From Chondrosia reniformis (lineage: Eukaryota > Porifera > Demospongiae > Chondrillida > Chondrillidae), in NCBI GenBank assembly GCA_947172415.1, contig OX359196.1, forward strand, positions 6,945,901-7,009,900: a DNA stretch of 64,000 bases. Reading direction: 5' to 3'. This document shows positions 3,214-59,276 of this stretch, in pieces. The position numbers and the translations under genes are program-made. The stretch's first letter is position 1. Every line of letters starts with the position of its first letter. The notes under the pieces were generated by a model. That model was not told where the DNA came from and searched no databases. It saw nothing but the letters and a program-made list of their open reading frames with translations.

Positions 3214-3228
3214 TCATGACTGTCTCAC
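3143..3228. repeat. 22-bp tandem repeat at the 3' end of the FERM gene
   Basis: About three and a half copies of a unit like tcacatgactgccatgtgac. The unit contains a near-palindrome of CATG/GTGAC type. The array overlaps the stop codon region (stop at 3214-3216) of the upstream-lying tandem-FERM gene, so the final residues may have been altered by repeat expansion. Confidence 0.7.
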
Positions 3229-6200
3229 CAAGGGTGTCTCATGAGACTGTTGAAATCCGTTTTCAGTTATTTCTCCATATATGGCATTAATGTCTTCCTG
3301 AGTCGGTATATCAATCTTCAAATTAGGTTTCCTGTTGCCCCTAGCAACAGGTGATTCAGACATCCCTCTGACATCATCCCTGGAAGGGTTCCCATTAAAG
3401 AGGTTGTCCTACACAGATTAACATACGCATGTCTTTTATGACCTAACCAAGATGAAGGTGACAGAGAGAGCTGGGACTCTGAGAAGAGTTAAAGATGCTA
3501 GACAAAGTTTGAAGGCAATGCCTTGTGTAACTGTACCTTGTGCACAATCGCATTAATGTGATACTCAACCAAGGCATTGATCCATCTTCCTTGATTAGTT
3601 TGAACAGGGTATTGTTGCTTGTCAAAAGACTATAAAGCACATTAAAGAGGAATACATACATTAAGCTATGTCTTACAGACGAAGCATATACCTACAATAA
3701 ATCCAATTCTTAATGCATGTACTACTACTGTACATACTTTATGCCGTGGAAACTGTAGTACTTACTATCATGAAGGTCTTTGGTGTGTAAGCCCAGTTTT
3801 TTAGTATTCTATACTCCCAGAAGTCCAGCACCTCCTTTGTCTTGGGGTCCACCCTCATGACCCCGTCCTTTGAGATGCCCAGGAGCATAGGTAGTAGTTT
3901 AGTATTTTGTAGGAATTTCTTTCGAGGTTCCTAATACAGGAAATGATAATAACCACATAAAACTTGGCTGTCCTATTCCCACCAATATTTGGTATACAAA
4001 ACTTGATTAATTACATATTATGTAGCTTTCAAATCAATTATTGAAAGGTGTAGTACCTTAACGGGGAAGAATGCTGCTTTGTAGAGTGGCAGCGTGCACA
4101 CTTCGTGAATGTAACTGTCTTGGGCTTGTCTTCTGTTGTAAGACCTAATATGAGTCTGCTCCTTCAGAACTTTGTCTTCAATGTTCCTCACTGAAGCATA
4201 TTCCACAGGAAGAAATTCAGATGCTTTGCAGTGTGCGGTGGTACTGTCACTCCTGATCCTGTCAAGAAAGTAGGTCTGGTACTGCAACGCTGCCAACTGT
4301 CAAGGGAATAGTAGAACAGATATTTTATAACCAGTGCATATAGTACAACATCACACACTGCATACATAGTTGGTTGACAACATTAGAAATACACATGTAA
4401 AGTTAAAAATGTCAAACTTACTCTAACAGCATCCTCCTGTGAACAAGGTTGAATCCCCTGGATGACACTTAACCAACACTACACAAGTAATGAATACAAT
4501 TAAATATTATATGGCCAATCACCCAACCTATAAGACCTTACCTGATGAAACTTGATGTCTGCTGGAACCCTCAATGCATTAAGGGGAAGCGGTTCAGGAG
4601 AGGTTCGGTCGGACTCAAATCTGAAAAGAGGCAGTTGAAATGCAGTTAGGCTTACATACCAATGAAAAGGCATTGACAAGGATTAACCTGTACCTTAAAG
4701 CTAACAGTCTGCTTGTATATATGCTGTGATCTTTGAAACTCTTTTGGCTCTCAAGTTTGATTGGCTGGTCACCTTGGTCTGAACAATGGGATATGCAATG
4801 GGATACATAAGTAGGTAGGCTAAGAAGCCACACTTTAGGAAACTAGGAACATGAGAGAGAAGGAAGGACATACCAGGAAGGAAAGCAAACGCTGCACCTC
4901 TGATACCCAAAGGGTCCAGCATGGCTGATGTTCTTCTCTGCTTTGTTACCTCTTCAGGAATGGCTTCACTGAGACTCTGTACAAAAATGAAGCAATAACC
5001 ACCTGATACGTGAACCTCACTAAGGTAACATCAATAGTGGAGTATGTATGTTGAAAATAGAGAGTCACTTCATCTATGTATATGTATATGCTGAAGTGAT
5101 AGGACTTATTTGTCGCGATCATGATGATATATGAAGTTTATTGAGCAACAGCAACATTATATTGCTGATGAAGACCTACGGGTTGAAACGTTTTAATCCA
5201 AAGATTTAATGTTGCTGTTGCTCAATAAACTTCATATATCATGTATATATGCTGTACATCACAGAGTTAAATAAAATCAGCAAAGAACAAATTAATTGGA
5301 TAAGAGGTTTAAATATGTTACTATATATAGCATGACACCATTGTAGACTTATATGCCGCATCCTTACATTTTCTGATTCCTTCAATGCAGTTAAAATGGA
5401 TCCCTCCAAATACAGTGAGTACAGTTCAGGATGTTCTACAAACACACATACGTATTTCAAATTTGTCTACGTAACTTTCTAGTTCAAATGCAGTTTAAAC
5501 TTACTTGAGCCAATCAAGGCACACACACGGGTAATAATCTTTGTAATTCTCTCATTTAGGTTAACCTGAGTACAGTACAGGATGGTTAGTTACTTTGCAG
5601 AGCAGAGATGTACCTAGGCACATACCAATTCTCTGATAACTTCTCCAACTGGTGTCTTTATTAAGAAAACTCTAAATTCTCTCTTTAATGTATTATAATC
5701 CTGCAACAAATACAATTCATACATATACGTACTAAGTGTCCTTAGGGACATTTAATTGCGCTGTTGAGAGGACCATGTTTCTACTATACTGGTCAGAATC
5801 CTCTACATATATACATCTCAAGTGCCACTGTACTCATTCACTACTAAGGTACACAAACTGAACACACACATATATGTACATACGTACATGTAGGTATATG
5901 TAAGTTCAGAGGATCCACTCCCTTATAATATAGTTCTAGGTCATAGGTCATAGGTCATACGTAGGTACAGGAAAATGGTGATTTATATTACTCTTGTACA
6001 CTTTCAGCTTCAAATACCTTCAGTGGTTCAACTGGTTTGGTAACTGGTGTCAAAGTGGGTCCTTTCTGAGTTTTTGTACTTTTCTGGTTGCCTGTTTTGA
6101 TTATTCTACGTTTACCAATGCCCGGGCTGGGCTGAGCATGAGGATGGAAGGGCTGGTGATGGTGGGAGGGAGAGGTGCTTCTGCCGGAGGCTCTTACATC

Positions 6201-9200
6201 TGGCAATGATACAGCACCCGGCATTCTGTAGATATCTTCTTCTACATCATCCGCTAGCTCTGTAGAAGGGACTTGATAGATGTCATCCTTTTGGTTGGCT
6301 AGCACACCAACTAGGCCGTACAGTCCAGTGTCCATATCTCCTTCGCTGTTCCTGGATCTGGTGCTGGCACTGCTTCCACTCCGAGAGCCCAAATCTATAA
6401 ACCGGCTGTAGATGTCGTCCACCTCTGCCTGTGCCTGCTGTACCTTGTCAACATCATCGATGTATCTCTTGATGGACGGGAGTGCCTTCAAGGCCATGTG
6501 CTTCCCAGGACTTGAGAGCGGCGGTTCAGAACCACTTCTACGCTTTAGCACATTTGGGTCCTCGTAGGTCACATCGGAAGATGTCAGCAAGCTTTCTGCC
6601 TCGGAAGCCGCAGTTATGTCATAGATGGGATTGATTTCCTGTGACCACCTCTGCTTGGAGAGGTCCAGTTCCAGCAGGTCATGAAGGTCCTCCAGAGATC
6701 CACCGTCTGGTTGGGGAGGGAGACTGATGTATTTGGAGACCTCCTTGGCCTTGCGACTAGCTCTCCTCTGCACCTCGCTTGTACCTGAATGTCATATCAT
6801 AGCTCAGTTACATCATTTCCAGAGATTATAATACTAGCATCTAGAATATGTACACATAGGGTACATACATACATACATACAAAATGTTGCACATTGATGT
6901 ACGCTTATTATGAAAATCTACATACGTACTTCAGGCTTTTCAATCTACAAAACTGTCAGAATATGAAACATGGACAGTACACCAAATATGTTTTTACATG
7001 TAGATACCCACATACCTTTTAAACTAACAATGTCATCATCTTTCAAATTCTCATCCTTCTTCTTTTTCAAGGCTTTTAATCTTTCCTTTCGAGCATGAAG
7101 AACCTTACTGTTTCTTGTGAGAGTGTCAAACTTCTTCTCATTCTCAGACCATTTGTCATCTTCACTTTTGGTTGATCCCCTCGAGGTCATGGAGTCGGGA
7201 GATCCCTTTGAAGGTGGCGTACCCACAGTTTCCTCTTCCTCCCTCTGCAGATCACAAGGAGAAACCTCAACAGTTGGTGTCCCAACCTGTTGTGCAATAT
7301 CATCACTCTCTCCCTGTACATGTGATGGCTCCTTTGGGCTGGGTGGCAGGGGAATGGGTTCTGGTGAAGCCTCCTCCCTCTTGGTCACTGCTCCATTAGT
7401 GATGGGTTGGGTAACAGGGTCGGGAGGACTTGCACACTTTTTGACATTTTCATGAGATTCAGGAGTGATATTGTGCAATAGGGCTGGTCGCTCAGCTTTT
7501 ACTGAGGGAGTTTGGACTAATGGAACGGGTGCCACTTCCACTGCATCTTCTACTGTGTGCTCTGAGGAAGGTCTGCTCTTTTCTTCTGTGGCCGCTTCTA
7601 CAGAAGGCTTTGAGGATGTTCTAGGTCCAGTTTCACTTGTAGGTACAGAAGAAGGCTTTACATGCCCCTGCTCTGACGTGACTCTTGGCACTATAGTAGG
7701 CTTGGTCGTTTGGACTGGGGCTGATCGCTTGATTGGATTGGGACCATGTTTCCTCTCGGGACTGTTTCTGACGGGTTCTGGGACTGGTGGCGGCTGCTTA
7801 ATCCTTCTGACCACAACTACTTCTTTGGCTGAAGGCTCATCTCCCTTTTCAGGCTTACTTAGCTTCTTAGGTAGAGATTTACGACTTCTTGATCGCTCAA
7901 TTCTAGCCTCCACCTCCTTGTTTGTCAGCTTGGTCATATATCCTCCCAGAAATGATATAATGCTCTCACTGTCTTCAGCAACAAACTCTACCTTGTCATC
8001 ACCGAATTGCTAAATCAGAGGAACCAAGTTCGTAAATCAAAACCAGAAATATAAATTTATGAGAAACAGAATAAAAGAATTATATATATACAGGTTTTTA
8101 GGGGTTTAAGGAAATGCCCCCCCCCTCCTAAGCTTGCAGCCAAGTACTACAATAATTTATTGTATTTTAGCTCCAACATACCCCCTCCTCTATTTCTCAA
8201 AACATTGGTTTGCCCCCCACACACCAGAAAAGTTTTCCCCTAAATCCCCTGATATATTGTGCATATCAGAGTTCAGGGATATCATTGTAATACGGAACCC
8301 AAATATGTACGTACACACACAAGGTATCAGTTGTAGTGTTTAGTCCAAACGTACCAGACTCACAACATCTCTATTGTGGGAGTATGAAACCAAATCTTCG
8401 GTATACCACTGCTCTAATGGCTGACATATTGCAGAGAAGAAAGAATATGGTAACATTATTAGCAAAAAGCCTATGTACAACATGTCACTTCTGCTTGTAA
8501 CATATAATACATATACAATATACATGCGTACGTATATAAATACATATGAAATAAGTATAAACATAAAGAGTAGATCATATACGTAGCACCCATATTATAT
8601 GTACGTACATATGTACGTAAGTACGTATTTATACGCTGACAGTATTGTATGTCAGTCTACTTGCATATGTATGTAGTTAGTATTGAGTACCTCCTCCAAT
8701 GTATCAACTTCCATCTTGTAGACGTACTGAGGACCAATGCCAAGCAGGCCTGTGTTATGAGTTCTATTATCGGGAGAAGAGCTGGAATCCAACTGGAGAG
8801 GGAGGGAGAGAGCCTGGTGATCACTTGATGTCTAGGCAATCAGGAGTTACACACACTTACAGAGATGGTAAAGAAGGAGACACCAAATGTTTCCAGCTTC
8901 CTAAGTCTGCTAATGAATGCCTTCATTGCTTCCGTTTCTGTCAACTGAACATTCTCCACAGCCTATTAGAGATATCTCAGATGTATATAAAGCATACTAA
9001 ATGTGCTATCTACATCCATCTGGTTACAAACCTTAGCAATATTGTTTTCAATGCCCCTAATGTTCCAATACTTTTCCGGTAATATTCTACGAATAATACC
9101 ACATGTCCTGCACCAAAACAAAACAGTTGTTGTTATTTATATTTACTTCACTAACATGTAAGTGCATATGCATACAATCTATTTCATTAGTTGGTAACAT

Positions 9201-12200
9201 CTGATGTGTAGTATTATGTAGCTAGCAGTTTCACTTCTGGAAATTAAATGAGGGGCACCGGATATGATGAATTGCCTTACGTACGTATGTATGTATGTAT
9301 ATCAAAATACCTTCTTTATTAAGTAAAATAACGTTTATCATATGTACACCAGTACATTTAGAGTTCTGCTGTTCTTACTGCACTCACTTGATGGCTCTTG
9401 CATTCCTGGCAATGGTACCAGAAAACTCTACGATACTGGCCATTCCTGAAATCTGGGCAGCTTGGAAGGTTGTGCAATGATACAGCCCAGCCACAAATGA
9501 CTTCCTCAGCTGCAGTTACAGAATGTATTCCTGTGTACTTAGGTATGTGTGTAATTAGACATGTATGTAGGGGCAGATTTACAAAATATTTGTAATTTGG
9601 CTTCACCAATATTTAGTGTATTACTATGTAGGTTGAAAATACAAAAATATGTTATTGCAATTAGAACTCCTGCAACTGAATTAGTTAACATATACTCAAG
9701 TATGTACGTAGACTAGCAGATTATGAAACAATTAGTTACTGAGTGGTATATGTACGTATGTACGTAGGTAAATTAATAGGAGTGACCGGGGGGACTGGGG
9801 GAATGACAGAGGGAGGGACTGTGGGGACTGGGGGAATGACAGAGGGAGGGACTGTGGGGACTGGGGGAGGGACTGGGGGAATGACAGAGGGAGGGACTGT
9901 GGGGACTGGGGGAGGGACTGGGGGAGGGACTGGGGGAGGGACTGGGGGAATGACAGAGGGAGGGACTGTGGGGACTGGGGGAGGGACTGGGGGAATGACA
10001 GAGGGAGGGACTGTGGGGACTGGGGGAGGGATTGTGGGAGGGACTGGGGGGACAGAGGGAGGGATTGTGGGAGGGACTGTGGGGACTGGGGGAGGGACTG
10101 GGGGAGGGACTGGGGGGACAGAGGGAGGGACTGTGGGGACTGGGGGAGGGACTGGGGGAGGGACTGGGGGAATGACAGAGGGAGGGACTGTGGGGACTGG
10201 GGGAGGGACTGGGGGGACAGAGGGAGGGATTGTGGGAGAGACTGGGGGGTGTCCCTACAGCACCCCACCCCTGCTACAGTACTTCTATGTCAATCTTACC
10301 TGAGCATATATGTTCTCCAATAGTATTGAATTCTTTTCACTTGAAATATCAAGGTCATCATTTTTCAGGAAGTACTTCTTTCTAATATAAAAAGCAGGGA
10401 GACTGGTACTTAAATAGGAGGGGCCATCTAACCTGGCCCACGTAAGTGGGAGGGGCCATCTAACCTGGCCCACTTAAGTGGGAGGGGCCATCTAACCTGG
10501 CCCACTTAAGTGGGAGGGGCCATCTAACCTGGCCCACGTAAGTGGGAGGGGCCGTCTAACCTGGCCCACTTAAGTGGGAGGGGCCGTCTAACCTGGCCCA
10601 CTTAAGTGGGAGGGGCCATCTAAACTTACAGGTCATTGAACTGGTAAATCTTTTGAATTACATACATAATTACACATATGCGTGTGCTCCAGTGGAGAAA
10701 GTAGGAAAAATTGATAAGAAAATTGCATCCTCTTTCAAGTTCCTTAGGCTTCCCCTGTCATGTCTAACAAGTAATGCTTTCTGTCATGTCTACAAGTAAT
10801 GCTTTCTGTCATGTCTACAAGTAATGCTTTAAATTACACATTAATATACATATGCATTACTGCTCACAAACCTCAACAGCACTGTCGCTGAGCTACCAAC
10901 TCCTTGATCTACTAAGGGAACTGCTGGATTCAACCACGTCACTACAGGTTAAGGGTGTCATGTGACAGCTAGTCATGTGACGATCATGTGACTTTTATAA
11001 CCAACCATTGATAAATGTATCTGAGTTTTCATCTTTCCAGGCAAGAGAAAATTCACTTAATTCTTCAGATTTCTTGCAAAGACCTACATCAAGAAGACAT
11101 GAAGCAAGTTAAACCACACACAAGTATGTACCACACATGTACTGTATGCAATGTATATGTATCAATGTTCTGTACATGTAGCTAGGTTCCAGATTTGGTT
11201 AATGAATATACTATCATGTTACAAAACATGACAGGTATACTGACACCCATTCCACCTACTTACTGCCAGACAGATAACCAATCTGAAATGATAACACTCT
11301 ATATTTATTTTTCTGTAGTACTAACACGCCAAAATGTACACATGCAATTGAAGAGCAATTAAGATATCTTCCTAAACCTGCCTTATTATAGACTTGCTGT
11401 CTGCCCATAATCTAGTGCTACTAGAATCATATGACTTTATGAATACATTTGTGTATAAAGTGTGGAATTCCACAATGAATGCTTTCAGAAGACCTTCAAA
11501 TGCAAGAGATAATCATTGCAGGAGATATGCAGACAAGATCAAAGAAGACTCAATGAATACTGCTTGGCACACCTGGACACTTCACTGCCCTCACATCCAA
11601 ACCATTAGGGTTCAGTTGCCAGAAATTGCTTCTCTAGTGTTTTCAGGCATCATGCTGTTTGAGAAGGATTATAATTACTTGTGGTTTGATTATCACTTCG
11701 ATTATCAAGAGCAGAATATATTAGAACAATCACAATAAGATCAAATGGATCAGCTTAATTTAATTACACTAATTGATTAGGTGAAGATACCACACATAGG
11801 TACAGTATCACATCTCCATGCCACACATATTTAATAGATAAGATATACACTAAGGTAGCAGATATGCCAAGGGAAAGGAATCAAATAGTCCACATCTAGT
11901 GGCAAAATGAAGAGGAGATAAGCTGGTGTAATGTGATACCACTTGAGAAACACTTGGTGTAAAGGTGTTGTCAAGCTGAGAACCCTATACCAACCAAACA
12001 CTACCAGAAACACTGAGAACATATCTAGATTATAGATAACATTAAGTCGTACAATATCACAAGAAGGAGGGCAGTACAATGTAGGAAATAATACCAAACC
12101 TAGTCAATATTTTTCTTTGCTATTAAATTTGGCAATTTAACTTTCTTCAATATTTTCACAGTGGAGAAAATGTCTCCCGTAAATAATCCTTGACCCCATA

Positions 12201-15200
12201 CTGACTACATACAGCCCACCCTGCGTATGAGTCATGTCCTCTTAATGTTCAACACTTAATGTTTATAAAAATGGATAGCCTTTACAAGGTGAAAACTGGA
12301 GAGTGCTATAGAGTGAAAGGAGGAGTGAATGACAGACATACGCAGATGAATAGTATCAGACTGTTGGAACATGGAGGAGGATCCAATAATTGTACAGTTA
12401 CCATGGTAACAGTACCCTCTCTCTACATGGGTACAAGCTCTCAAGTATATATGTACACACGTATGTACATACATAGGCAGGATATACAGTAGTCTGCTGG
12501 AGTTACTGTTTGAGAATTAAAAAGTCTGACAGTTCATTTTACAAGTACAATAAGTTGAAGAAAATCCAGTGTTGTCAACTAAAGAGTTCTCAAATTCTAT
12601 ATACGTAAATAATGACTACACAAGTCCGCTGGTACTCACAGGACTACATCTCTGAGATGTACAATAGCTACATACGTGTGTATGTACACAAGTCAAATGT
12701 TTGTCTGAACATAAACAACCAAAGGTTAATTATTCATGACCTTGCCTTGTCAGACAGAGGTATGCAGCACTGTCACAACAGGTACTGGACATTCCCACTC
12801 ATATCAGGGGAATAACAGGAAAGGAATCTGAGGAAGCCATCAATCTCAAGGAATTCCTGCCATGCTTGGTTACAAGTGCATTACAAATGGTATCTCAGTT
12901 GAGATAGGTAAGTTGGGACACCTTAAGAGTTAAAACTGTTGTCAGTGTCCCCATTGACACAGAAAAACCCTTAGTACAAATAGGATAAAGATTACAAACT
13001 TAACAGAAGGTGTTATATAATGCAGTGCATGTAACATATTTAGAAAACTATGATTAATATGCCTATGAAGCCAAGGACATGCAATCAGGGGTTCATATAG
13101 AACCTTGGAAAACAAGGGATTCCCTTCCCCCCTCTTAGAGTTGATTTCCCCCCTAAAATCCCCTTCCCCCAGAGGGATTATCAGGTCATGTCAGTGACCC
13201 TGTAAGTCCCAGAGCTGGTACATTCCTTTCTTGTTAAACAATAACTGTACGTACATACATTGCCCAGTGGAGAAGAAATGGAGTAGTGAGAAATCTCTTG
13301 TAAATCCTCATCCAATGTTGTGTTAGATTGTTCATATATTTATATTCATACCTGTTCTGACTCCAATCAAATTTACAGCTTCTTTGAGTGTACACTTCAC
13401 TGGTACCTAACATGGTAGAGAAATACTTGTGGTTACATACTTCTGATATCAGCAGTCACACCACTGACCACAATCCCCTAACAGGTAATCTTACACATGT
13501 AAACCTTATATGTAAAGTTGTGGTTAGAAGAGGAAGAGGGGACAGATAACAATCAGACACAAGTTAAGTACGTATACAGTAAAACATCCGATCTTATGAA
13601 TTACGTTTAAGCATTTGCAAATACGCAAACACATAATATATATAATATACGTATGTTACATGTATGTATTCAGCTCATATGTAGGTATGACATGTACGTA
13701 TGTGCATATGTATGGTATATACTCTTAGTAGTGTAATTGAAGGGTAACTGAAAGGTTTTGCAATGCTAACACATAATTTCATACTTTGTGATTCAAGTTG
13801 CACAGTAACATGGCAGTGGTAAGCTGTCATATAAAGGCCTCTACACTCCATTGACTAATGGAATTTACCAATTATGATCAGATAAATAGACACAAATATG
13901 TAGGCATATGTATGCATAATAATAAATCATTGATAATTCATGTAGGGTAAATATTTATTGAAAGGCATGTGAAACAATAGAGTAGAGAGAGGCCGTACAG
14001 TAAACCACTTAAACACTAATACATATATTGAAAATTAAACACAGTTACAATATAATGACTGATTGTTCATCTGTAGTGTAAGTATTAGATGCAGTACACA
14101 ATACTGTATATACACAGGTAACAATAGATACTTTATCAACAATACAGAGATGGGCAACAGATTCTGAGGAGGAAATACTTGCTATGAGATAGGTTGCTAT
14201 GTGACCAGTTGCCATGAGATAGGTTGCTATGTGACCAGTTGCCATGAGATAGGTTGCTATGTGACCAGTTGCCATGAGATAGGTTGCTATGTGACCAGTT
14301 GCTGGTTTTATACTACACATGACTTATAATTTCACGTTTATATCAAATTGAAACACACGTGTGATTCCATGTCCACGCAAAGTCTAGGTGGTGGTAGATG
14401 TGTGTTGAGTGATTCATGTACAAAAGACATAATGTGATTTCTATATAATAATAAATAAACTATAAAAAAGAAGTTTTCATTACTACATCTTAATAAATCT
14501 ATAATGAAAGGAAATGAGTTTACAATTGTACATAGATCGCAGACAAGATGGTGAAACCTGATTGAAATGGGATCAACTGGTTCTTGGGGTTGTAATACCA
14601 TTTCTGGTAACTTATCACTTATAAAAATCTCCCTTCTTATGAATAACATGTAACTCATCAAAATGCCATACCATACTGCACAACCAGTCTGTGGTCACTA
14701 AAACATCCATTACATCATCACCCATCGACTTCATTTAGATGAGGGTGCAGAGATAGGCTAGCTTTTGGACAAAATATGGAAATGTTTACCTGCCTCAGTT
14801 GGCACCCACACTTGAATGAAGTGCAGGCGTAGGTTGTCAATTAACACAGCATTAGAGCAGTTTATGGAGTAAGTTCTGTAACTCTATTTAGAAGCAGTAA
14901 TTACTAAAAAAGTGAAAATGACAGACTATTTAATACAGTCAACACATACTTTATTTATCCAAAAACATAAATGTGCACAAATTCTTGCATTTTATACAGT
15001 TAGCAATGTGATGTTGCAATATAATAATGCAGTGTGGGTATACTGATGTTATTCCTAAATTAGACATCCATTGAAGGTGATTGAACAAGGAATTCTATGT
15101 TTCATTTTGCAATACCTTTAATTTCACAGTATACAAATACCTTACAATATTCTGTGGCTTTTCAAAGAGGAACAGGCACCCGCAGATCAGGTGCTATATA

Positions 15201-15757
15201 ACACAACAGTTTATACATCCTGTATTCAATGTATTTGTAGTGCATTCTATCCAAACATACACTAGTCTGTCACTAGATCAACTTCATATGCACAGCAACT
15301 TGTGAAATCATTTGCCATTTCATTATAGTTGCCATGGCTTCTTTAGAATGTCTACTCGATGTGTTGCCCAGTGGTTATGCATGGAACATGTTACATCACA
15401 ACATCCCAGCAGTCAGGATAGGAATCACACTCTCACCACAACCCAAATGAGGTCAAATGAGCCCTTAAAACGGGGATTATTAAAAAGCCTCACTAAATAG
15501 GCTGTATACTCCTATAGGTCAATAAGTTAATTGCATTCTCCTTGAATGTAGCACTATGCATTGGATTGGCAATTGAAAACCCTTACAGGAGCGCTTATAA
15601 GTCTTCCTTTAAGCCCGTTTACACAATCACCGCAAAATATAGTGATAATTAACCAAGACAATAAAGTACCTGACGAATATAGCTGCTAATTCTTTATTCT
15701 AAAACTTACAGGAATAGTCTTTTTTGTTCCATTAGAAAGTTCCACATTCAGATCCAT
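3214..15757 (-). CDS. Tandem talin-head protein: two talin-type FERM domains joined by a disordered tyrosine-motif linker
   Basis: The spliced CDS has 23 exons, every junction keeps phase, total 3783 bases, 1260 aa. Exons: 15710-15757, 13352-13406, 11006-11083, 10872-10941, 10300-10381, 9388-9509, 9032-9107, 8861-8962, 8691-8792, 8355-8420, 7016-8009, 6018-6784, 5636?-5700 read as 5626-5700, 5505-5565, 5368-5435, 4874-4976, 4694-4778, 4542-4620, 4422-4478, 4057-4296, 3766-3930, 3537-3629, 3214-3408. FERM-A (aa 1 to about 292) follows talin F1-F2-F3 order: start [17 protein letters not shown]1/F2 border [12 protein letters not shown]2 [12 protein letters not shown] and [11 protein letters not shown]3 [13 protein letters not shown] and [14 protein letters not shown] (aa about 855-1196) repeats the order: [62 protein letters not shown]. 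The linker (about 293-854) is Pro/Ser/Lys/Glu-rich with NPIY (650-653) and three YxxP sites. Talins carry one FERM head and a rod; no rod or I/LWEQ domain is present here. Likely a cortical adaptor; function is inference. Confidence 0.87.
5124..5242. repeat. Perfect 36-bp inverted repeat with hammerhead-like loop
   Basis: Arms 5124-5159 and 5207-5242 are perfectly complementary. The 47-base loop reads, on the plus strand, CTGATGA, a short GACC/GGTT hairpin, then GAAAC, which is the conserved order of a hammerhead ribozyme core. It sits in an intron of the tandem-FERM gene in antisense orientation. A foldback (MITE-like) transposon end-pair is the alternative. Confidence 0.7.
9779..10250. repeat. 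G-rich minisatellite in FERM gene intron
   Basis: About 470 bases built of gggactggggg, agggactgtg and aatgacagaggg modules in varying order. All G runs lie on the plus strand; the transcript of the host gene carries the C-rich strand. The ORFs through it on both strands are repeat artefacts (Gly-Gly-Thr on one strand, Pro-Gln-Ser-Leu on the other). Dense GGG tracts could form G-quadruplexes on the non-transcribed product. Confidence 0.9.
10415..10625. repeat. 32-bp minisatellite
   Basis: About six copies of a unit containing aagtgggaggggccatct followed by aacctggcccac, with cttaagtg/cacgtaag junction variants. It lies in the intron between FERM-gene exons 10300-10381 and 10872-10941. Confidence 0.9.
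10753..10830. repeat. Short tandem repeat, about 27 bp x 3
   Basis: Three copies of ctgtcatgtctacaagtaat gcttt; the first has a small insertion. It is in the same FERM-gene intron as the 32-bp minisatellite. Confidence 0.8.
11084..13351. other. Large intron of the tandem-FERM gene
   Basis: No supported exon was found. A 114-codon plus-strand ORF at 11394-11738 has no recognisable motif and no matching neighbours, so it is not called. The rest is AT-rich with TACGTA runs. Confidence 0.6.
13407..15709. other. First intron of the tandem-FERM gene
   Basis: The 2.3-kb intron separates the 16-codon first exon from the second. It contains the 30-bp repeat at 14178-14300 and otherwise AT-rich sequence. 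No second gene is supported in it. Confidence 0.6.
14178..14300. repeat. 30-bp tandem repeat, about 4 copies
   Basis: Unit ggttgctatgtgaccagttg ccatgagata, four nearly identical copies, in the first intron of the tandem-FERM gene. A minus-strand ORF reading through it (repeated [10 protein letters not shown]) is a repeat artefact. Confidence 0.9.
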
Positions 15758-36500: not shown

Positions 36501-39500
36501 TATTTAGCAATTTAGGATTCCTTGCCACTTCTTGTTCATCAGCAACTTGGGGCTCTTCTAAAGGTTTCTCTGGTGAAGAAGGCTTCTTCTGAGTTGGCTC
36601 ATTGTTCTCTTTTTGTGCTGGCTTACCTAAAACTGAGCCCTATGCAAACACAGCCAACATAACCTTGAGCGTGTGGCTCAAACAGAGTAATTAAAAATCA
36701 GTAATATAGAAGTAGCAGCTGGCAGTGACAAATCAAGCATAAAATCATAGCCAATGTGCAGCAGTACCAGCCGTATTACTAGTGGCAGTTCCTTTAAAGA
36801 CACTTACATCAGTCAAGGTTGTAGCTTTCTCCTCCTTTGATGATTTTGCAGCTGTTACCTTTGGGCTTGGTTTAGGTGCCTTAGAAGGGTCCAAACTGAC
36901 AGTGGAAACTCTTTCATTGGCTCCACCAAGCCACTCTTCAGCTGTCATTGCAGGTATATCAGATTTGGTGTCTGGAAAGAGATCACTATGAAAGTCCCTG
37001 TAGCTCTAAACCATTGAAGATATATACACATACAAACTGTATAAATGCCATATAAAATTAGGTTGCCACAACATACCTTCCTTTGTATATAAAACCCAAT
37101 AGGAACAACAGCATTCTTTGTTAGCTGGTAGAACTTGGCTACCTGGCAACCCATCACGTAGCAGGATCTCTTGGGAGCCAGAGCAAGCCCTTTGTGCTGC
37201 AAAGTACTTCTATAGACATTGCTCCCTAACAAACACAGATACGTGCACATCTGGAGCACATGGAAGATTTGAAAACAAATTCAGTCTTCACTAAACTATC
37301 TATGGGCTTAATTTGAATTTTCTACATGCATGTTGTTGTTAAATGTATATATATGTATATACCTGGTGAGAGATAAGGTGATTTTTCAGTGAGTTCATAG
37401 AAAGAGATTGCAGATTCACCCTTTACAGCAACATACATCATTTTAATGTCTTCATCGTAAAATATCATGGGAGACCTACACAAAATAAGATGGGTAGTCT
37501 TAAAAAAATTATGATGGGTGACTACATAAATTCCCTATACTGTGAAGGACACACTCACCCCACTGTTGTGAAGGACACACACACCCCACTGTTGTGAAGG
37601 ACACACTCACCACACTGTTGTGAAGGACACACTCACCCCACTGTTGTGCCAAAGTTTTGGGAACTGATTGCAGCATTAAAATTCCTCGTATCCCATAGCA
37701 ACACCTGAGCATCCCGAGTCTACAGGTGGTTAAATGAGCAATCATTTAAATGAATAATATAAACATGGTGTACAGGTGTACACAGACTGAAGATCATCAT
37801 GATCGGACCTCGCCACCATATTTAGCTTATAATTAATCTACACATTGAAGTGCTTATACGTACTTCAGGCATTTATGATCATCCATAATTACAGGTTTTT
37901 TTTCCAAATTATAAGAAAATACAATAAATCGAAAACAACACAAAATACAAAGCATAGCAGATGATCAAAGCAAATTAATGATAATACCAGTGCTTAACAA
38001 CTAAATAAATTGTATTGAAAAACAAAATCCACGTACATATGTGAGTTATTTTTATAAAAATATACAAAACCTTGGATGCTCAATAGCTAAAATAATCAAA
38101 GTCTAATGATCTTTGGTTTGCCTGAGTCAGTCACACAGATAAAACCATTGTCGTCAACAGCTACTGCAGAAGGGGCATCTAGGCCAACATTCTTCACCTC
38201 CCAGACGCAGGCACCACCACCAGGGGAAAATATGGATACCTTAAATGAATCATACGAAGCCACTATGATGAACCCATCCTTTGTGACTGCAATACCAGTT
38301 GGCAAACTGAGAACACGATCACCAAAACGGGAGACATAGTCTCCATTCTGAGTAAACACTTGTACTCTATTATTTCTCTTATCTGTTATATACAGAAGGC
38401 TGTCAGGGCCGATGCACACGTGACAGGGGTAGAGGAATTGGCCATTCTGTGACCCTTTGGATCCAAAGCTATGCAGGAATATGCCATCTGATGAGAACAT
38501 TGACACTCTGTGGTTACTCCATTCCACTATGAATATGGTACCTTTTGCATTTACAGCCACACCACACGGATTTCCCAGTTGACCTTCCTTCTGTCCTGTT
38601 GATCCAAATGTACAAATGAGAGTTCCTTCCAAAGTGACTATCTTTACACAATCTTTGGATGAATCCGTAAGAACAACATGACCCAGGGGAGTGAGGGCCA
38701 GGCCGTCCAATCGGTCTCCTACCCCATCAACTGCGAGGCTCCTAATGAAGACACCCTCTTTGTTGAAAATGCGCACGCTCTTACTTCTATCACTACTGGT
38801 TAAGAGATTCCCCTCTGCATCAACGGCTATTGCCCTAAAATATTTTCTCATTTGGTCATCTGTAATTTCTTGCTTGACTGAGGAAGTACTCTTAAAATCT
38901 ACTACATGAACCTTCACTAAGTCTCCTTGTATCTTATTTCCTTTGACAGTCACACTCAGATTACATTTCTCCGATGGAGCATACTTGAATTGCACTTCAT
39001 ATGTGCCGTCTTCCTTATCAGTCACTTCACCAAACACAGGAACACCTGCTGTCACAGGATGAAGGACAGCCAACACCTTCTCGCCTCCTGTGCATGGATT
39101 ACCTTTCATATCCTTTGTTATGACTCTAAATGAGAGTGGAGTGTTGGCCCATGGTCGGTAGCACACTTCTCCTTCATAGGAAGCTGGCCCAAAGTCTAAA
39201 CTACACTTTTCAAGATATGCTTCTCTAGAGATACCACAGACTTTGGGTAATACCAGTGACGCCTCTTTGACCATATTAGGATGCACGGTCACCCTTGGGT
39301 ACTTGACATGACAGCTTGTACTCTGCAGTAGGGTGGCTGTTCTGTTTACTATCAGTTCTGCAAACCACAACTGTTCTTCAGGAGTGGCAAGCCTAGTAAT
39401 CTCATTTGACAAGGAGCAGAAGTCCTTCAATTTCTCAAGATTGCTTCTCAGTTGGGTTTCATGCATATTGAGTTCTTTAATTCCTTCTTCCTCCACAGCC

Positions 39501-42500
39501 TTCACCTCAGCCACAAGACCCTCACATCTGGCACTGATCAGTCCAACCAGTAAATCCTTTGCCCTCTCTATCTTCCCAACAGCATTACCACACTGCTCCT
39601 GGAAGGAGATCTTGCAGACTTGGGTGTGTTGCAGGCTGGCAGTGATTCTCTGCTCTTCCCTTTCCGCTGACGTGATGCACTGAATAACTGTACACATGTT
39701 CAGCTTGCTCAGCTGTTCATTCAGGTAGCCAGCATTATGCTGTCTACAGCTACCAGCAGAATGACACACTACACATATCATCTTTCTGCACTGGTGGCAG
39801 TAGAACCTCAATTTCTCTTTGTGTTCCTTGCAGGTAAGCCAGTTTCCTTCGAGTGATTTGTCTTCTTCTTCCATAGCGCTTAACGGTACAGTTATGTGAG
39901 TCTTTAAGAGCTTTAGATTTCTGTGTACATCTAAGCATTCACTGCACAGCAACACACTGCATTGCGTACAAAAAGCAACGGCACTCGTTAAGGTTTCGTG
40001 ATCCTCGTGACAGTGCATCTCTTCTTTCTGATAGCGACCTTTGAGTGCCTTCCTCAAGGCAAAGGGGTGAGTAGGGAATCCATCAGACGGGACGGAAAAG
40101 GTTTCTTTACAAACCTCACAATAAACCTCACAATTATCAACTGTCGCTTGACACTTTGGATCGCATATGGATACCGAGTGAAGGCAAGGTAGACAACGCA
40201 ACTCCTTCACGTTCTCGCCACACTTAACACACGAAAATAAAGCCGTGGGATTACTCGGTCGCTCCGCCATTTTTAGGCTGCGTGACGTCACTTACCGTAC
40301 TAAATCCAGAGCTGGCTATGTTCTCCTCACTTCCGAGCCACACGACCTGAGATTCTTTGGCGCCCGAGTGAGCTTTGATCTCCTATTAAGTGCAAGGAAG
40401 GCTATTTAGACTTCACCTTACTCGGTGGTTATTGACAGCTACTAACTAATCACCATGGCAACTGATCCAGACCTGGGGTCCCATACTCGCATCTTCTTTG
40501 CATTTCCATTCTACAAGTGTGTAAACAGGCAGCATGTACATCACACCAAACCCACTGAAATGACTAGTATCAACATTCCCATAGTCACACAATGTACCCT
40601 CCCAGTCGCCACACAATGTACCCTCCCAATCACCACACAATGTACCCTCCCAGTCGCCACACAATGTACCCTCCCAGTCGCCACACAATGTACCATCCCA
40701 GTCGCCACACAATGTACCCTCCCAGTCGCCACACAATGTACCCTCCCAGTCGCCACACAATGTACCCTCTCAGTCACCATACAATGTACCCTCCCAGTCG
40801 CCACACAATTCAGGGCTCCAATAACAAACCTTGCAAATTGATGCAACTAGACTTCCGTCTCCTTTCCATGACACGCTCTGTACTACGTCCTCATGTTCTC
40901 CAAACCCTGCAACACAATAGGTAGTAACAGCAATGCATGTTTATAAGCAAAAGGAGCTATTAAATATATTCATGAGCCTTCCTACCAAACTGCCTTTTGG
41001 CATGTACCACATCCCATATTTCCACTGTTGGACCACTAGATGTTAGCAAGATCTGTCATGGAAAGGAGAATAACAGTCTTAAGGACAAGGCTGCACTGTT
41101 GCCTAGCAGCATAACAATTTTAAGGACAAGGCTGCACTGTTGCCTAGCAGCATAACAGTCTTAAGGACAAGGCTGCACTGTTGCCTAGCAGCATAACAAT
41201 TTTAAGGACAAGGCTGCACTGTTGCCTAGCAGCATAACAGTCTTAAGGACAAGGCTGCACTGTTGCCTAGCAGCATAACAGTCTTAAGGACAAGGCTGCA
41301 CTGTTGCCTAGCAGCATAACAGTCTTAAGGACAAGGCTGCACTGTTGCCTAGCAGCAGTCTTAAGGACAAGGCTGCACTGTTGCCTAGCAGTCTAAATGA
41401 GGCCACAACACATGCAATTATCAATCACTCCAATCAATTATCTACTCATGAAATTCATTTCAGTATAAGAAACAACTGAACATTAGAAATAATCTCACCA
41501 GGAATTTATACTCACGTTATCTGCTGCAGAATTAAACTGCACTGATTCAATACGTTTCTGTAGGAGAATACTATACTAAACACTGGTTCAAATAGAAATA
41601 TAAGCATACACTGTCTAGGGTACAAGATGGCATCAGTAACATTACAACTTATGTTAATGGCTACATATCACAAGTAATGACCTCCAATGGACCAAGAGAA
41701 AGTTTGGGTATGGACAAACTGCCTCTTATTCCATCTTCAGGAATTTCCCATAATTTTACCTACACAAAAAATGACAATATCAAGTTTCATAAAAACAAGA
41801 GATGTTATTGTCATCAGCACATAAAGGAAGAAGAGGCAGCTTGCTATACAAGAGAACCTACAGTGCAGTCTTCAGAACCTGTTGATAACATATTGTTGAA
41901 AGGAGAAAAGTCAAAATCAGTGATAAATCCTGCATGACCACTGATGGTTGGAAAAGAGGTGTTCCTGCCACAAGTGCCCAATGGTAGCACAGCAAGGCTT
42001 CCAACAGCTTACATATAACAGCAAAAGAGAAATAAAAGGTAAGGAATGAGAGAACCCATCCAACCAACTACTATAAGGGTGTGATAAGGGTTTCCAGACT
42101 TCACACTAACTCACAGGTAGAGTCATGATGGAAGGCAAGGAACTTGCAGCTGGCTTTGATATGATTACTGAAGGAATTTAAAGATCCCACATTCAAGTCG
42201 TGAATCCAGCCCTGAGGAGATAGGAGGACACAACTTTGTGAAGCAACAAAGTATTTCAAATCAAAGGATCTCTACAATAACTGGACAACTGTGTAGTATT
42301 TAAACTATCTTACACGTACAGTTATTAATTCAATTTATTAGCTATTTTATAGGACTATCTGTCATAATTCTTACGGTATTGCGGCAGAGTAGGGTAATAT
42401 TAGCGCTTCATAGTTGTATACTAATTTGACTAATCATGGAACATTGCGATGATTACCTATTTCTACCAAACCTTCTTGGTAAGAATAATAATTTGTTGGC

Positions 42501-48951: not shown

Positions 48952-51838
48952 TTAAATGAATTCATCAGCTTTCTGAGAGAGGCATTGAACTGTACATCCT
49001 TCAGGCACCTTCTGCTTGCCAAGCCATGTTTCAGCCTTCATTGCCACCAGCTCCCATTCGTCCTTCAGATCCAGCTGCTGCTTCTTCAAGTAGCTCAGGA
49101 CCACAGCAGTGGCCCACACTGACTCCATCTCACCTTCACAAGGAACAGGACAGCTGCTCTTTAGGGCCTCCAACCCCTTGTCCAACAGTGCTACTAACTG
49201 GCTTGTCAGACTCCAAGCACCACTAGCAAGCTGTAGACCTATCAGTGACTGTAGCTTAGCTTCTCTGGATACTGGTTTCACAGCTGCAGTGGAACATATA
49301 TTCATAGGTTCCTCGAAATTTCTGGAAACTAAATGCATTGGCATTGCATTAGAACAACTTTCTGTAAAGGAGTGGGAGAGATGGGCAGGTGGACTGGATC
49401 TGGAGAGAAATCCACTGGTAGGAGGAGGACCACTAGCAGGCAGGGGGCCACCAGGAGGAGGAGGAGGTGGAGGGCCACCACCAAGGGCACCACTCATAGC
49501 AGGAGGAGGTGGAGGGCCACCACCAAAGCCACCACCCATAGCAGGAGGAGGACCACTAGCAGGAATACAACACATAACTTTATTAAGAGGTGAGTAATTC
49601 ATGCCACGACCTCCCTTCCTTCTTAGCCCTGCACCATAGGCAACAGACTGCTGAAACTGAGGAACTGGGTGAGGTGCCTGCACATCCCAGGTCTGCAGGC
49701 TGCCCTTCACTGGCTCCTTCTGCTCCTCATCTATGGCTATGAAAGCTGTGAACTTGGAGATAACACTGGAGTCACAGCTCAACTTGACAATCTCCTCCTC
49801 CTTACCCCTTCCACCATCGTCTGCCTTCATCTCCATCTCCTTGATCAGTCTCTTTCCAGCTAGGTGGTGGATGGTGGATACAGACTGGCAGTCTCCTTGG
49901 ATCTGATTGGGAATTTCAAAATCAACAGTGTGATCAATTCTTCCTCCAAGTAGGTCCCCAGAGAGGCTGACTGATCCCTTATGTCCTGAGATCACCTTTC
50001 CTATCATGCTCTTACCCAGAATACCATACACTATAGTCCTCTCTCCAAGGAATATCGGAGGAACCTGTTCTGGAGCTACTCTTACAGTGTTCCCATAGGG
50101 AAGATTAAACTTGACTTGAGTGTTAGTCACTGCAGGCTGCATTGCTTGCTTCAAGGAGCGAATAACCTATAAAGATAAAAATGAAATCAATTTAAATCTC
50201 TTTCAAAGATCAAAAACTGAAAGATAAAAATGAAATCAAATTTAAATCTCTTTCAAAGATCAAAAACTGACAGATGAATTGTCTCTCTTAATGAAAATTC
50301 TTAACAACACATGGGTTCTTTTGAATGTACTTATTTCATGACGTACACTCTAAAGCCTTGTGAATATAATGTATAGAGCTCCAATTAATGCCTACCTTTG
50401 GCTGCATTCTCTCTCCACTAGTAATGAATTCTGCAGTTCCATTGCCTGCTTGTGCTATTCCCTTGACAAGACTGGTGGAAGCACCAGATCCAATTCCAAA
50501 AGAAAAACATCTACATCCACACACACAACAGAGAAATTAATATTAATCAATCAGCTTATCACAAATTTAAGATTCTAATATTTTATTACTTCAGTGAGTT
50601 ATATGGAAATACAATACAATGCACATGTACCTTGCATTCCTTGCATTCTTTGAAACCAGCTGTATCACTGATTCTGTATTACTCACACCTCCATCTGTCA
50701 GCACCAAAACTTGACGAGTAAGACCCTTAATCAGTGGTTGCTTGAAGATGTACTCCAAAGGCTGATAGATCTCTGTCCCTCCGAGGTTAGCCTGCAGTCC
50801 TTCAGCATGTCTCACCGCTGTATCAAGGTTCTTCTGGTTGTAGGGAATGCTTTCAGGAAACAGCTTCTCGTAGCGACTGCCAAATCCTATGATGTTGAAG
50901 AAACATCCTTCCGGGATGCTTTTAAGGAAGAGAATCAGTGTCTGTGCTGCATCGCGAATATAGGAACCCGACATGCTGCCACTGCGGTCAATCACAAACA
51001 CAAACTCGCAAGCAGCCTGAGTGGCAGATGTGTCTCCTTTGAACTCTGGAAAGAAGCTAACCATGACAGCAGGACTCCTGCGGAAGTCGCTGCTGCCATC
51101 TGACAATCCTGGCTCCACTATCACCATCGGACGATGAGGATCTTTTGGGCGGATCAGGATCACAATGTCACTCTGATTCTCGTCATCAAGGCTAACTTTC
51201 ACCATTCCACCTTCAGTAGAGGTTCTGATCTTGTGGGATGGAGAAGTCACCTCTGCAATGCCATCAGCTCCACTGACGTTGAGATCGAACTTGTAGGAAG
51301 AAGGACCCTTCCCTTGCTTTACCTGATTCGCTGCTCCCTCACTCGTGCTGACTGCTTCCAGTGGGTTGGTATCACCTGAGGGCGTGTAGCGAGGCTTCAG
51401 TACTGTCGGGAGGACGAACCGTACGGACCCGTCTGCCTCGATGCCCAACTCTCCTACCATAGTCAGGTGGATCTCTGCTTCTTTGCCTGGAGGAAGATTA
51501 CCGAGGACTATACTGAAAATGTCTCCTTTCTTCTCTTCAGCGAAAGCAGCAGTGTAGCCGCTGGCTATTGCATCGTCATACATCTCCTTGGCCTTCTGCT
51601 TCTCTTGTATCTCGGCTCGTATCTTCCGTCCATCGATCACTGCCTCCAGACCTACCACAGCAAAGGAGTCATCCACCGGAGTTCGGAACAGCACCTCCAG
51701 GGGATCAGGCGAGTCATTCTTGTAAGTCAACTTTGACTGTAGTCCCAGAAGATAGCCTTGTACGAAAGCAGCTACCGAGATGTCCTTGAGAGGAACAGAC
51801 TCGTCCTTTCCCTTGATGAGCAGACCTGCTAGAACCAT
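48952..51838 (-). CDS. VIT-VWA protein, VWA5A/PARP4-like
   Basis: Three exons, 845 aa: 50631-51838, 50396-50510, 48952-50166. The N-terminal VIT domain (about 10-140) has VPLKDISVAAFVQGYL and the IQEKQKAKEMYDDAIASG block. The VWA domain follows (about 276-430), with the MIDAS motif D284-x-S286-x-S288 and a later LVLTDGGVSNTE. After a beta-rich region comes a Gly/Pro segment (about 590-650) with short polyproline runs, then a helical C-terminal domain (about 720-845) like the vault-interacting region of PARP4 and the VWA5 family. No PARP catalytic domain or BRCT is present, so VWA5A-like is the better name. It may bind vault particles; that is inference. It is head to head with the MALT1-like gene, only 387 bases apart. 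Confidence 0.88.
50168..50272. repeat. About 53-bp tandem duplication in a VWA-gene intron
   Basis: Two adjacent copies of a stretch containing ataaaaatgaaatcaa and tttaaatctctttcaaag, near the acceptor side of the last intron. Confidence 0.85.
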
Positions 51839-52225
51839 GTCAACGATACCCAGATGTTACCTTACGAGTAATATTGCAGCATCACGATATCCGCTAGATA
51901 ATATTCTTCTAAAAATAGTCGATGACTCATTTAAGGATAAGGGAAAGTACCTGCCAGATCAGCGAAACAAGACACAAGTTGCTTCGATCGTTTTTGAGGT
52001 ACGTTCTTACTATTGAGGTCTACCTTTTTAATGAAATATAAGTATATACGAAATGCTTATTAATAGCAAACTTATACTTATATAATACAAGTAAATTTGC
52101 CGTTAATTTACTCAGTTTATTACCGTATTGTGTTTTACCTCTTTCCAATATCATACATTATAACTGCTTCTTACCATAACCTCAATATATGTTATTACGA
52201 CAGGACTACTCTATGAACATGCACT
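51839..52225. promoter_or_regulatory. Shared divergent promoter of VIT-VWA and MALT1-like genes
   Basis: The two start codons (51838 minus, 52226 plus) are 387 bases apart and point away from each other. The region has an open plus-strand frame to 52016 that lacks family features and likely reflects 5' leader sequence. A shared or bidirectional promoter is inferred from the arrangement. Confidence 0.5.
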
Positions 52226-57709
<5,484 letters not shown>

Positions 57710-59276
57710 ACATTCAATTTATAAATGTTCTATGAACTCTATTCTCAATACTCTATTCATAATAACTTTGTTTTTCTCTATATAACAAAAGCTCCTTTGT
57801 AGTCACATTTGCTTTTACAATCATGTGAAATCACACGTGATATTCAATTATGAAAGTTACATAAATAATTGATCCAATATTATTCATGAATAGAGGTTGT
57901 GGTTAAGGACATACACATGAAGTAGCTACCTTTACATACATACACCAAATTAATGTTTGTATATATATATATTCATTATTATAATCTCTCAATCAGGATC
58001 AGCTGACTAACTGAAGACGCACTTGACTACATGTGTAAGTTTGATTAGTGAGAGCCGCATTCACACTCATTGATTCTCATTATACGACCCGTACCTGGAG
58101 GTTGCATGGATCTAGTGCCACTACGTAGTCGGCCAGGAAGCTATTGTAGGCTGCCGCATCAGGTTGGTTTGGAAGCATGTATTTGCATCCATGTATGCAA
58201 TTCTCTGTACATGCTATTCATGTATTTTCATTTTTTTTCTTGCAGTTCATCGATGGGTCCCTACTCTAAAGCAATCTGGTCGATCCCAATGAGTTAAAGT
58301 CTGTGTACAGTGCTCTCAAGCTCCGTTGTGTGCACATGATGATTCTCATTGGTCGGAGTTTGTGGTCCGCCAGGGTCGGGCTTGTTCTGTCCGTAGCGTG
58401 AGGCAGTGCAGGACTAGTAACTGGTCATAGGTCGATCAGGTACGCCGGACCGTTCCCGTGCAGCTTCTCTTCAACGCAAGTAGTGGAAGTGTCAAACAGA
58501 GTTGAAAAACCGGAGGCCATTTGGGGCATGAAGTACTTCTACCTCCTCATGGTGTGCCCTGGGGTCATCTTTCAGATGACGCGAAAAGAAGTGCAGTAAA
58601 GCATTATGACTGAATGGATGGACGAATCCATTCAAAAGAATTGCTAGCTGTTAATGCTGGACTCGTAAACTCTTGTATATTTTACCATTTCAACTTGTAC
58701 ATTTTAAGTAGCTACATGTATATAACATTTTGTTTATGAATTTATTCTTGATTGGAAAAAATAAGTACATGTACATGACTATAATACTAAACAAAAGCAT
58801 GGAAGTTAAAGGGAGAGTCCCTTCACGTGGCCGTCTAGTTAGCTAGATCTCTTCGCTTCGGCATCTAATAAAGGCTTTGGCCAATAAGAGATGCTTTCTA
58901 TAATTTCTCTTAAGGTTATTACGCCTACTTCTTGTTTTTGAAGGTTATTCGAGCCCTGCAGTTGTTTAGACGGTCCACAGTGAAGGTTGTAGAAACTATA
59001 TATGCGTAACATTTTCGTCCATCCAGAGTAGTGAGAATTGAAATGCTTCTATTACATACTATTATTGCCTCAGTGAATATACACTGACTTTGTTATTGAA
59101 TTTGAAGTATCTACATATGTATACATAATATAGGAGTTTGCTGAATGAACATTTAAACCAAAAACCTCAAAGGATTCTTTCTATTGTATAATGTATAAAT
59201 ACAGAATATATATATATAGTATATATACATATATATGACATATCCTTTGAGAAAGTGATTGTGAGTTATAATCTCA
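57710..59276. other. Intergenic region with an unexplained GC-richer block
   Basis: 58060-58620 is clearly richer in CG and GC than its surroundings, has an intron-like middle (ttttttttcttgcag at about 58231-58245) and ends with the hairpin gtcatctttcagatgac at about 58567-58583 followed by gcgaaaagaag. No long ORF. It could be a spliced non-coding RNA or a decayed element. Just before 59277 a tatatatatagtatatatac run may serve the next gene. Confidence 0.4.

Follow-up and report, generated by a model that had tools for sequence, protein, structure and literature searches.

A sponge gene predicted to encode two talin-type FERM heads and no rod, with a layout resembling that of Dictyostelium FrmA

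In talin, a single head is normally joined to a single rod; the head suffices to activate integrins, and the rod bears force. Kindlin (fermitin) has a FERM domain that binds integrin tails and carries a PH domain within F2, and the MyTH4-FERM myosins (myosin VII) also harbor two FERM domains. Dictyostelium, which is integrin-less, has FrmA (Patel et al. 2008), a protein that reportedly possesses a pair of talin-like FERM domains and lacks the talin rod. Here, we describe a gene of the sponge Chondrosia reniformis, located on the minus strand of a 64,000-nucleotide stretch (hereafter the window) of contig OX359196.1 (assembly GCA_947172415.1, positions 6,945,901 to 7,009,900). The observation of a gene with two talin-type FERM heads and no rod was confirmed.

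FrmA is titled a "multi-FERM-domain-containing protein" in a reference cited by both PMC9197732 and PMC12505270. According to PMC9197732, frmA-null cells have persistent, mislocalised adhesion foci and a stronger attachment, and FrmA promotes the turnover of adhesion foci; in PMC12505270, its mechanism is described as unclear. Integrin-talin-FAK complexes are reported in sponges (PMC6820919); thus, the setting for such a protein exists.

The sponge gene, which very probably represents a single transcription unit with two talin-type FERM domains, runs from position 15757 to position 3214. Its 23 exons, joined by eye and by script, remain in phase through 1260 codons and a TGA stop, with no internal stops, and all 22 introns are of the GT..AG type; the rebuilding returned the codon count of the initial annotation, whose quoted motifs are all present in the translation. 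The ATG at 15757 opens straight into F1, and an in-frame stop lies upstream of it, both in the unspliced sequence and with one candidate 5' exon joined; hence, the protein very likely starts at F1. The gene comprises the following features:

10872..15757, minus strand: F1 of the first head (FERM1), exons 1-4 (15757-15710, 13406-13352, 11083-11006, 10941-10872), from splicing and talin alignment.
8861..10381, minus strand: F2 of FERM1, exons 5-8 (10381-10300, 9509-9388, 9107-9032, 8962-8861), from Pfam FERM_M (residues 101-208) and talin alignment.
7911..8792, minus strand: F3 of FERM1, exons 9-10 and the start of exon 11 (8792-8691, 8420-8355, 8009-about 7911), from talin alignment and residue comparison.
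6018..7910, minus strand: linker, residues 301-854, the remaining exon 11 (to 7016) and exon 12 (6784-6018), from splicing, lack of Pfam matches and composition.
6621..6647, minus strand: W645-S-Q-E-I-N-P-I-Y653 in the linker, from motif scan and shuffles.
6219..6566, minus strand: stretch with three YxxP sites, TYEDP (Y672), DIYQVP (Y768) and DIYRMP (Y784), from motif scan.
5701..6017, minus strand: intron 12 (317 bases), the junction on which the single-gene model hinges, from splice and coding scoring.
4694..5700, minus strand: F1 of the second head (FERM2), exons 13-17 (5700-5626, 5565-5505, 5435-5368, 4976-4874, 4778-4694), from splicing and alignment with talin-2 from position 17 of this half.
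4057..4620, minus strand: F2 of FERM2, exons 18-20 (4620-4542, 4478-4422, 4296-4057), from Pfam FERM_M and talin alignment.
3537..3930, minus strand: F3 of FERM2, exons 21-22 (3930-3766, 3629-3537), from Pfam IRS-type phosphotyrosine-binding (PTB) domain and residue comparison.
3214..3408, minus strand: C-terminal tail with INAIYGEI, exon 23, TGA stop at 3214, from splicing.

Both halves resemble talin more than any other FERM family. The search of PDB sequences at E<=1 retrieved 43 distinct chains for FERM1 and 47 for FERM2, with talins on top of both lists: talin-1 for FERM1 (69.6 bits; best non-talins kindlin-3, 29.8, and myosin-VIIb, 17.8) and talin-2 for FERM2 (103.4 bits; best non-talins myosin-VIIb, 41.6, kindlin-2, 33.3, and KRIT1, 13.1). 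FAK chains were absent from both sets, and the talin-type identity proposed for the two halves thus stood against kindlin, MyTH4-FERM myosins, KRIT1 and FAK. Moreover, a profile of five talin heads scored 83.3 bits on FERM1, 135.3 on FERM2 and 51.8 on the kindlin of the same genome; the top score among 400 shuffled copies (276 reported) was 3.1 bits, so the likeness of the heads is more than chance. Pfam recognized FERM_M in the first half (37.6 bits, cut-off 23.8), together with PH_SLA1 spanning F3 below its cut-off (21.3 versus 27), and, in the second half, the IRS-type PTB domain (51.6 bits) and FERM_M (50.9 bits), both above cut-off.

The absence of a rod was borne out, no rod or I/LWEQ family being matched by Pfam in the linker or the second half; the linker did not match any Pfam family. 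The heads had also been called complete, which holds for F1-F2-F3 in both; F0 is missing from both (before FERM1 the ATG lies at the start of F1 below in-frame stops, and no F0 was seen before FERM2), and the F3 of FERM1 is strongly diverged.

By the description given above, two talin-like FERM domains without a rod in one predicted protein would represent a FrmA-type layout. The sponge protein differs from FrmA in its animal host, which has integrins, and in a linker with W-x4-NPIY and YxxP motifs. It shares with talins (TLN1/TLN2 and the sponge's own) the F1-F2-F3 sequence and, between FERM1 and the sponge talin head TalA, six exact introns; unlike talins, it has two heads and neither F0, rod nor I/LWEQ module. 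Kindlin is the second-best family for FERM1, but no PH family was detected by Pfam within F2 of either head. MYO7B is the best non-talin of FERM2, far below talin-2, and no motor or MyTH4 domain was matched by Pfam in any of the three segments of the protein. The YxxP sites, such as DIYQVP, resemble the substrate region of p130Cas (BCAR1); here, however, there are only three of them, flanked on both sides by FERM heads, and Pfam detected neither SH3 nor any further Cas domain. In view of FrmA, it was too strong to call the protein without parallel. The gene is best filed as well-formed and unusual, with a precedent: a variant of the FrmA-like, multi-talin-FERM kind, with the integrin-tail-like motif as its most interesting lead.

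The literature search, which covered few subscription papers, found no tandem-FERM talin protein, and the gene may already be published; the one "talin-like FERM" match concerned a plant kinesin. Relatives were also sought in contig collections of viruses and prokaryotes: exon 23 gave 12 pattern matches in viral contigs and FERM2 gave 70 in genome contigs and 10 in viral ones, none of them confirmed, and such collections say nothing on other sponges.

The genome of C. reniformis (117,379,552 bases, 15 contigs) was probed, only the best candidates being looked at, so that another copy might still exist. FERM1 retrieved its own gene only (11 matches out of 11); FERM2 retrieved 10 exon matches within its own gene and three talin-like heads elsewhere (C9:2.083M, C9:2.325M and C13:5.192M). 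The I/LWEQ family (PF01608) gave six matches at three loci, two adjoining talin heads (C9:2.30M, C13:5.21M) and a third on C5; all matches of PF01608, PF21896 and PF09141 lie on other contigs, none on C8, which carries the gene described here. The two-head gene is separate from the sponge's own talins, and a separate kindlin candidate lies at C14:5.034M. Two talin homologues are reported in the related sponge Ephydatia muelleri (PMC6820919).

The third talin-like head, TalC (C9:2082212-2084623, minus strand), exists in addition to the two heads with I/LWEQ. No rod family was matched by Pfam at this locus, where rod queries gave only matches that look like repeats or low complexity. It was considered as another rodless protein and set aside for the helical-looking reading frames seen by eye downstream of the head; TalC may belong to a talin whose rod has diverged.

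A total of 23 F3-region positions, placed by alignment, were compared with talin-2, using the talin-1 numbering. The talin residue is kept at 19 positions in TalA, 20 in TalB, 17 in TalC, 13 in FERM2 and one in FERM1. FERM2 retains the equivalents of K316, K318, K324, L325, W359, A360, F366, Q381 and I396, and its residues suggest an altered, plausible tail binder. FERM1, where W359 is changed to Y and L325 to H, does not appear to be a plausible integrin-tail binder, since it keeps just one of the 23 positions; its F3 groove seems to have degenerated.

The linker (about 554 residues, with a boundary set by us) has eight tyrosines, two tryptophans, a PPPVP stretch and a composition resembling that of a disordered chain. 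WSQEINPIY is its sole W-x4-NPxY motif, whose spacing is that of talin-binding integrin beta tails (beta3 W739-x4-NPLY). In 200,000 shuffles of the linker, W-x4-NPxY arose 13 times (0.0065%, 6.5e-5) and [WF]-x4-NPxY in 0.02%; the window reading frames of at least 60 residues (23,367 residues overall) contain two NPxY and one [WF]-x4-NPxY, that of the linker. As for the sponge's own integrin tails, PF08725 gave 13 matches, two above cut-off, with NPLY/NPIY exons; joining exons yielded no convincing tail, and no claim of W or F is made for them because the residue five before N sits across an intron. Near 501 kb of C6 (locus L051), six near-identical NPLY-coding exon starts, some 57 bases apart, lie beside an integrin-tail-like match and may represent a short tandem repeat located at a splice acceptor.

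Starting from what can be read in the sequence, that is, gene structure, talin-type identity, lack of rod and F0, groove residues and motif spacing, we consider the whole best explained, with a probability of roughly 0.4, by a phosphorylation-switched rodless scaffold with two talin-type heads that would compete with talin at adhesions; the basis of this model is anatomy and the FrmA parallel. FERM2 would be the working head and dock both at the membrane and with NPxY tails, of integrin beta or a similar type, and FERM1, with its degenerated groove, might offer a second membrane- or partner-binding platform. The W-x4-NPIY of the linker would mimic an integrin tail and could fold back on FERM2, or on talin's own F3, keeping the head closed; once NPIY and the YxxP sites were phosphorylated on tyrosine, the fold-back would open and SH2 adaptors would be recruited. 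Since it lacks a rod, the protein would take talin's place without actin coupling, so that adhesions would be limited or turned over. The single transcript, the fold-back, the phosphorylation and the competition with talin are steps that we infer. A role as competitor or in adhesion turnover is tentative, somewhat short of even odds, and the folding back of the linker motif is doubtful. The full chain, in which a counterfeit integrin tail sits in the F3 groove of FERM2 until phosphorylation opens it, the linker docks SH2 domains, talin is displaced and adhesions end, is more doubtful still.

Several points, together with those given below beside the alternatives, weigh against this model. In FERM2, R358 is replaced by N and S379 by P, and Y377 falls in a gap; in talin, R358 and Y377 help form the pocket that receives the integrin tryptophan. 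Furthermore, the F3 of FERM2 also touches the Pfam family KRIT1_FRMD8_FERM_C (27.8 bits, just under the cut-off of 29). NPxY alone arises in 2.1% of the 200,000 shuffles and is also bound by other PTB domains, and the W-x4-NPxY shuffle test is post hoc, devised after the motif had been seen.

Regarding the origin of the two heads, intron positions were mapped on an alignment of FERM1 (DF1), FERM2 (DF2), TalA, TalB, TalC and talin-2. TalA has eight introns in the aligned stretch; six DF1 introns are identical to them (columns 27, 45, 120, 143, 244 and 313) and a seventh lies at 218 versus 222, in the same phase, while two of DF2 are identical (27 and 143) and three more are in the same phase, 2 to 5 columns off. 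Three introns (columns 178, 279 and 335), all in phase 0, are common to DF1 and DF2 and missing in TalA, TalB and TalC; by eye, kindlin reading frames continue through these columns. When the five DF2 introns after column 143 were placed at random in a million trials, all three shared introns were hit exactly six times (P 6e-6), 556 to 557 times with one codon of slack (5.6e-4), and three matches to any of six DF1 introns had a probability of 1.3e-4. The three shared introns, absent from the sponge's own talins, favor an old duplication of one head as the likely source of both FERM1 and FERM2. Alternatively, the heads might have been captured separately from talin-like genes, without internal duplication. 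Each head is indeed nearer to talin than to the other (DF1-TalA 67.4 bits, DF1-DF2 17.4), DF1 and DF2 being barely alike (17-19 bits), and their sisterhood is not favored by the sequence tree of eight heads (DF1, DF2, TalA, TalB, TalC, talin-1, talin-2 and the sponge kindlin): in the approximately unbiased (AU) test of four constrained topologies, it obtained a p-AU of 0.105, versus 0.501 and 0.722 for two rivals and 0.092 for the last one, none being rejected. DF1 grouped with kindlin in this tree, both flagged as long branches. With all five inner branches open, the tree was dropped as evidence for duplication. Against separate capture stand the three shared introns, which make it rather unlikely.

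A further alternative, which we deem unlikely, keeps the scaffold and removes the competition with talin: a Cas-like docking protein recruited through its FERM domains, whose phosphotyrosines would drive Crk/Nck-type signalling. It would account for the three YxxP sites, which resemble those of p130Cas, and for the PPPVP stretch. However, three or more YxxP sites arise in 4.7% of 50,000 shuffles, so the evidence is weak on number alone, near chance, and the Cas domains are lacking.

The model of one protein is also to be weighed against two adjacent tandem genes, the first encoding FERM1 and the linker and ending at 5988, the second encoding FERM2 from an ATG at 5751 or from an unseen exon. 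The presence of both heads in one protein is a prediction, and exon 12, if read through, gains nine further codons that are coding-like (+0.43, on nine codons only) before the frame ends at 5988, which would also fit a short isoform; the ATG at 5751 is in frame ahead of exon 13, and a tandem duplication of a head gene would likewise account for the shared introns. On the other side, intron 12 is in phase and has a good donor and acceptor (left-out scores of 7.76 and 8.95 bits, reached in the window by 70 of 4182 GT and 27 of 4524 AG sites, respectively). The stretch of 17 codons that separates the ATG at 5751 from exon 13 resembles intron sequence (-0.42; coding-sequence mean 0.37 over 74 windows, with codons trained on the same sequence, and intron mean -0.36 over 404 overlapping windows). 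Would-be stop and would-be start are only about 240 bases apart, and the lone poly(A)-like hexamer in this gap (ATTAAA, 5756) is no more than expected, 17 occurring in the 12,544 bases of the gene. Two genes are thus improbable.

Lastly, a two-handed bridge, in which receptors would be clustered by two heads that each bind an integrin-like tail or a membrane (the bridge or "dimeric talin-head mimic" of the initial annotation), agrees with the full F1-F2-F3 of both heads by alignment, but it is poorly supported and equally improbable, as the F3 positions responsible for integrin-tail binding are lost in FERM1.

Within the gene, intron 5 contains a CCCCAGTCCCTCC-type repeat array (window 9732-10323), which produces a number of long fortuitous reading frames on either strand, and intron 4 contains, by eye, tandem copies of a GGCCCCTCCCACTTAAGTGGGCCAGGTTAGA-like unit just upstream of exon 5 (window 10407-10620). 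Elsewhere in the window, other frames were observed:

59265..63617, plus strand: a single open frame of 1450 residues, with no Pfam match at E<=0.001.
38096..40291, minus strand: a TRIM-NHL-like frame of 731 residues containing B-box, Filamin and NHL repeats.
50591..51856, minus strand: an inter-alpha-trypsin-inhibitor-like frame that contains VIT and VWA domains.

If the proposed model is true, a two-headed rodless protein would part the integrin activation of the talin head from the force bearing of the rod, representing a testable adhesion brake in sponges, and its internal pseudo-integrin tail would mean that a talin-type FERM domain can be regulated in a new manner. Such a protein would tie the integrin adhesions of animals to the FrmA-type adhesion turnover of amoebae. 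It would also raise the question of whether FrmA-type proteins were inherited from an ancestor shared by amoebae and animals or evolved twice.

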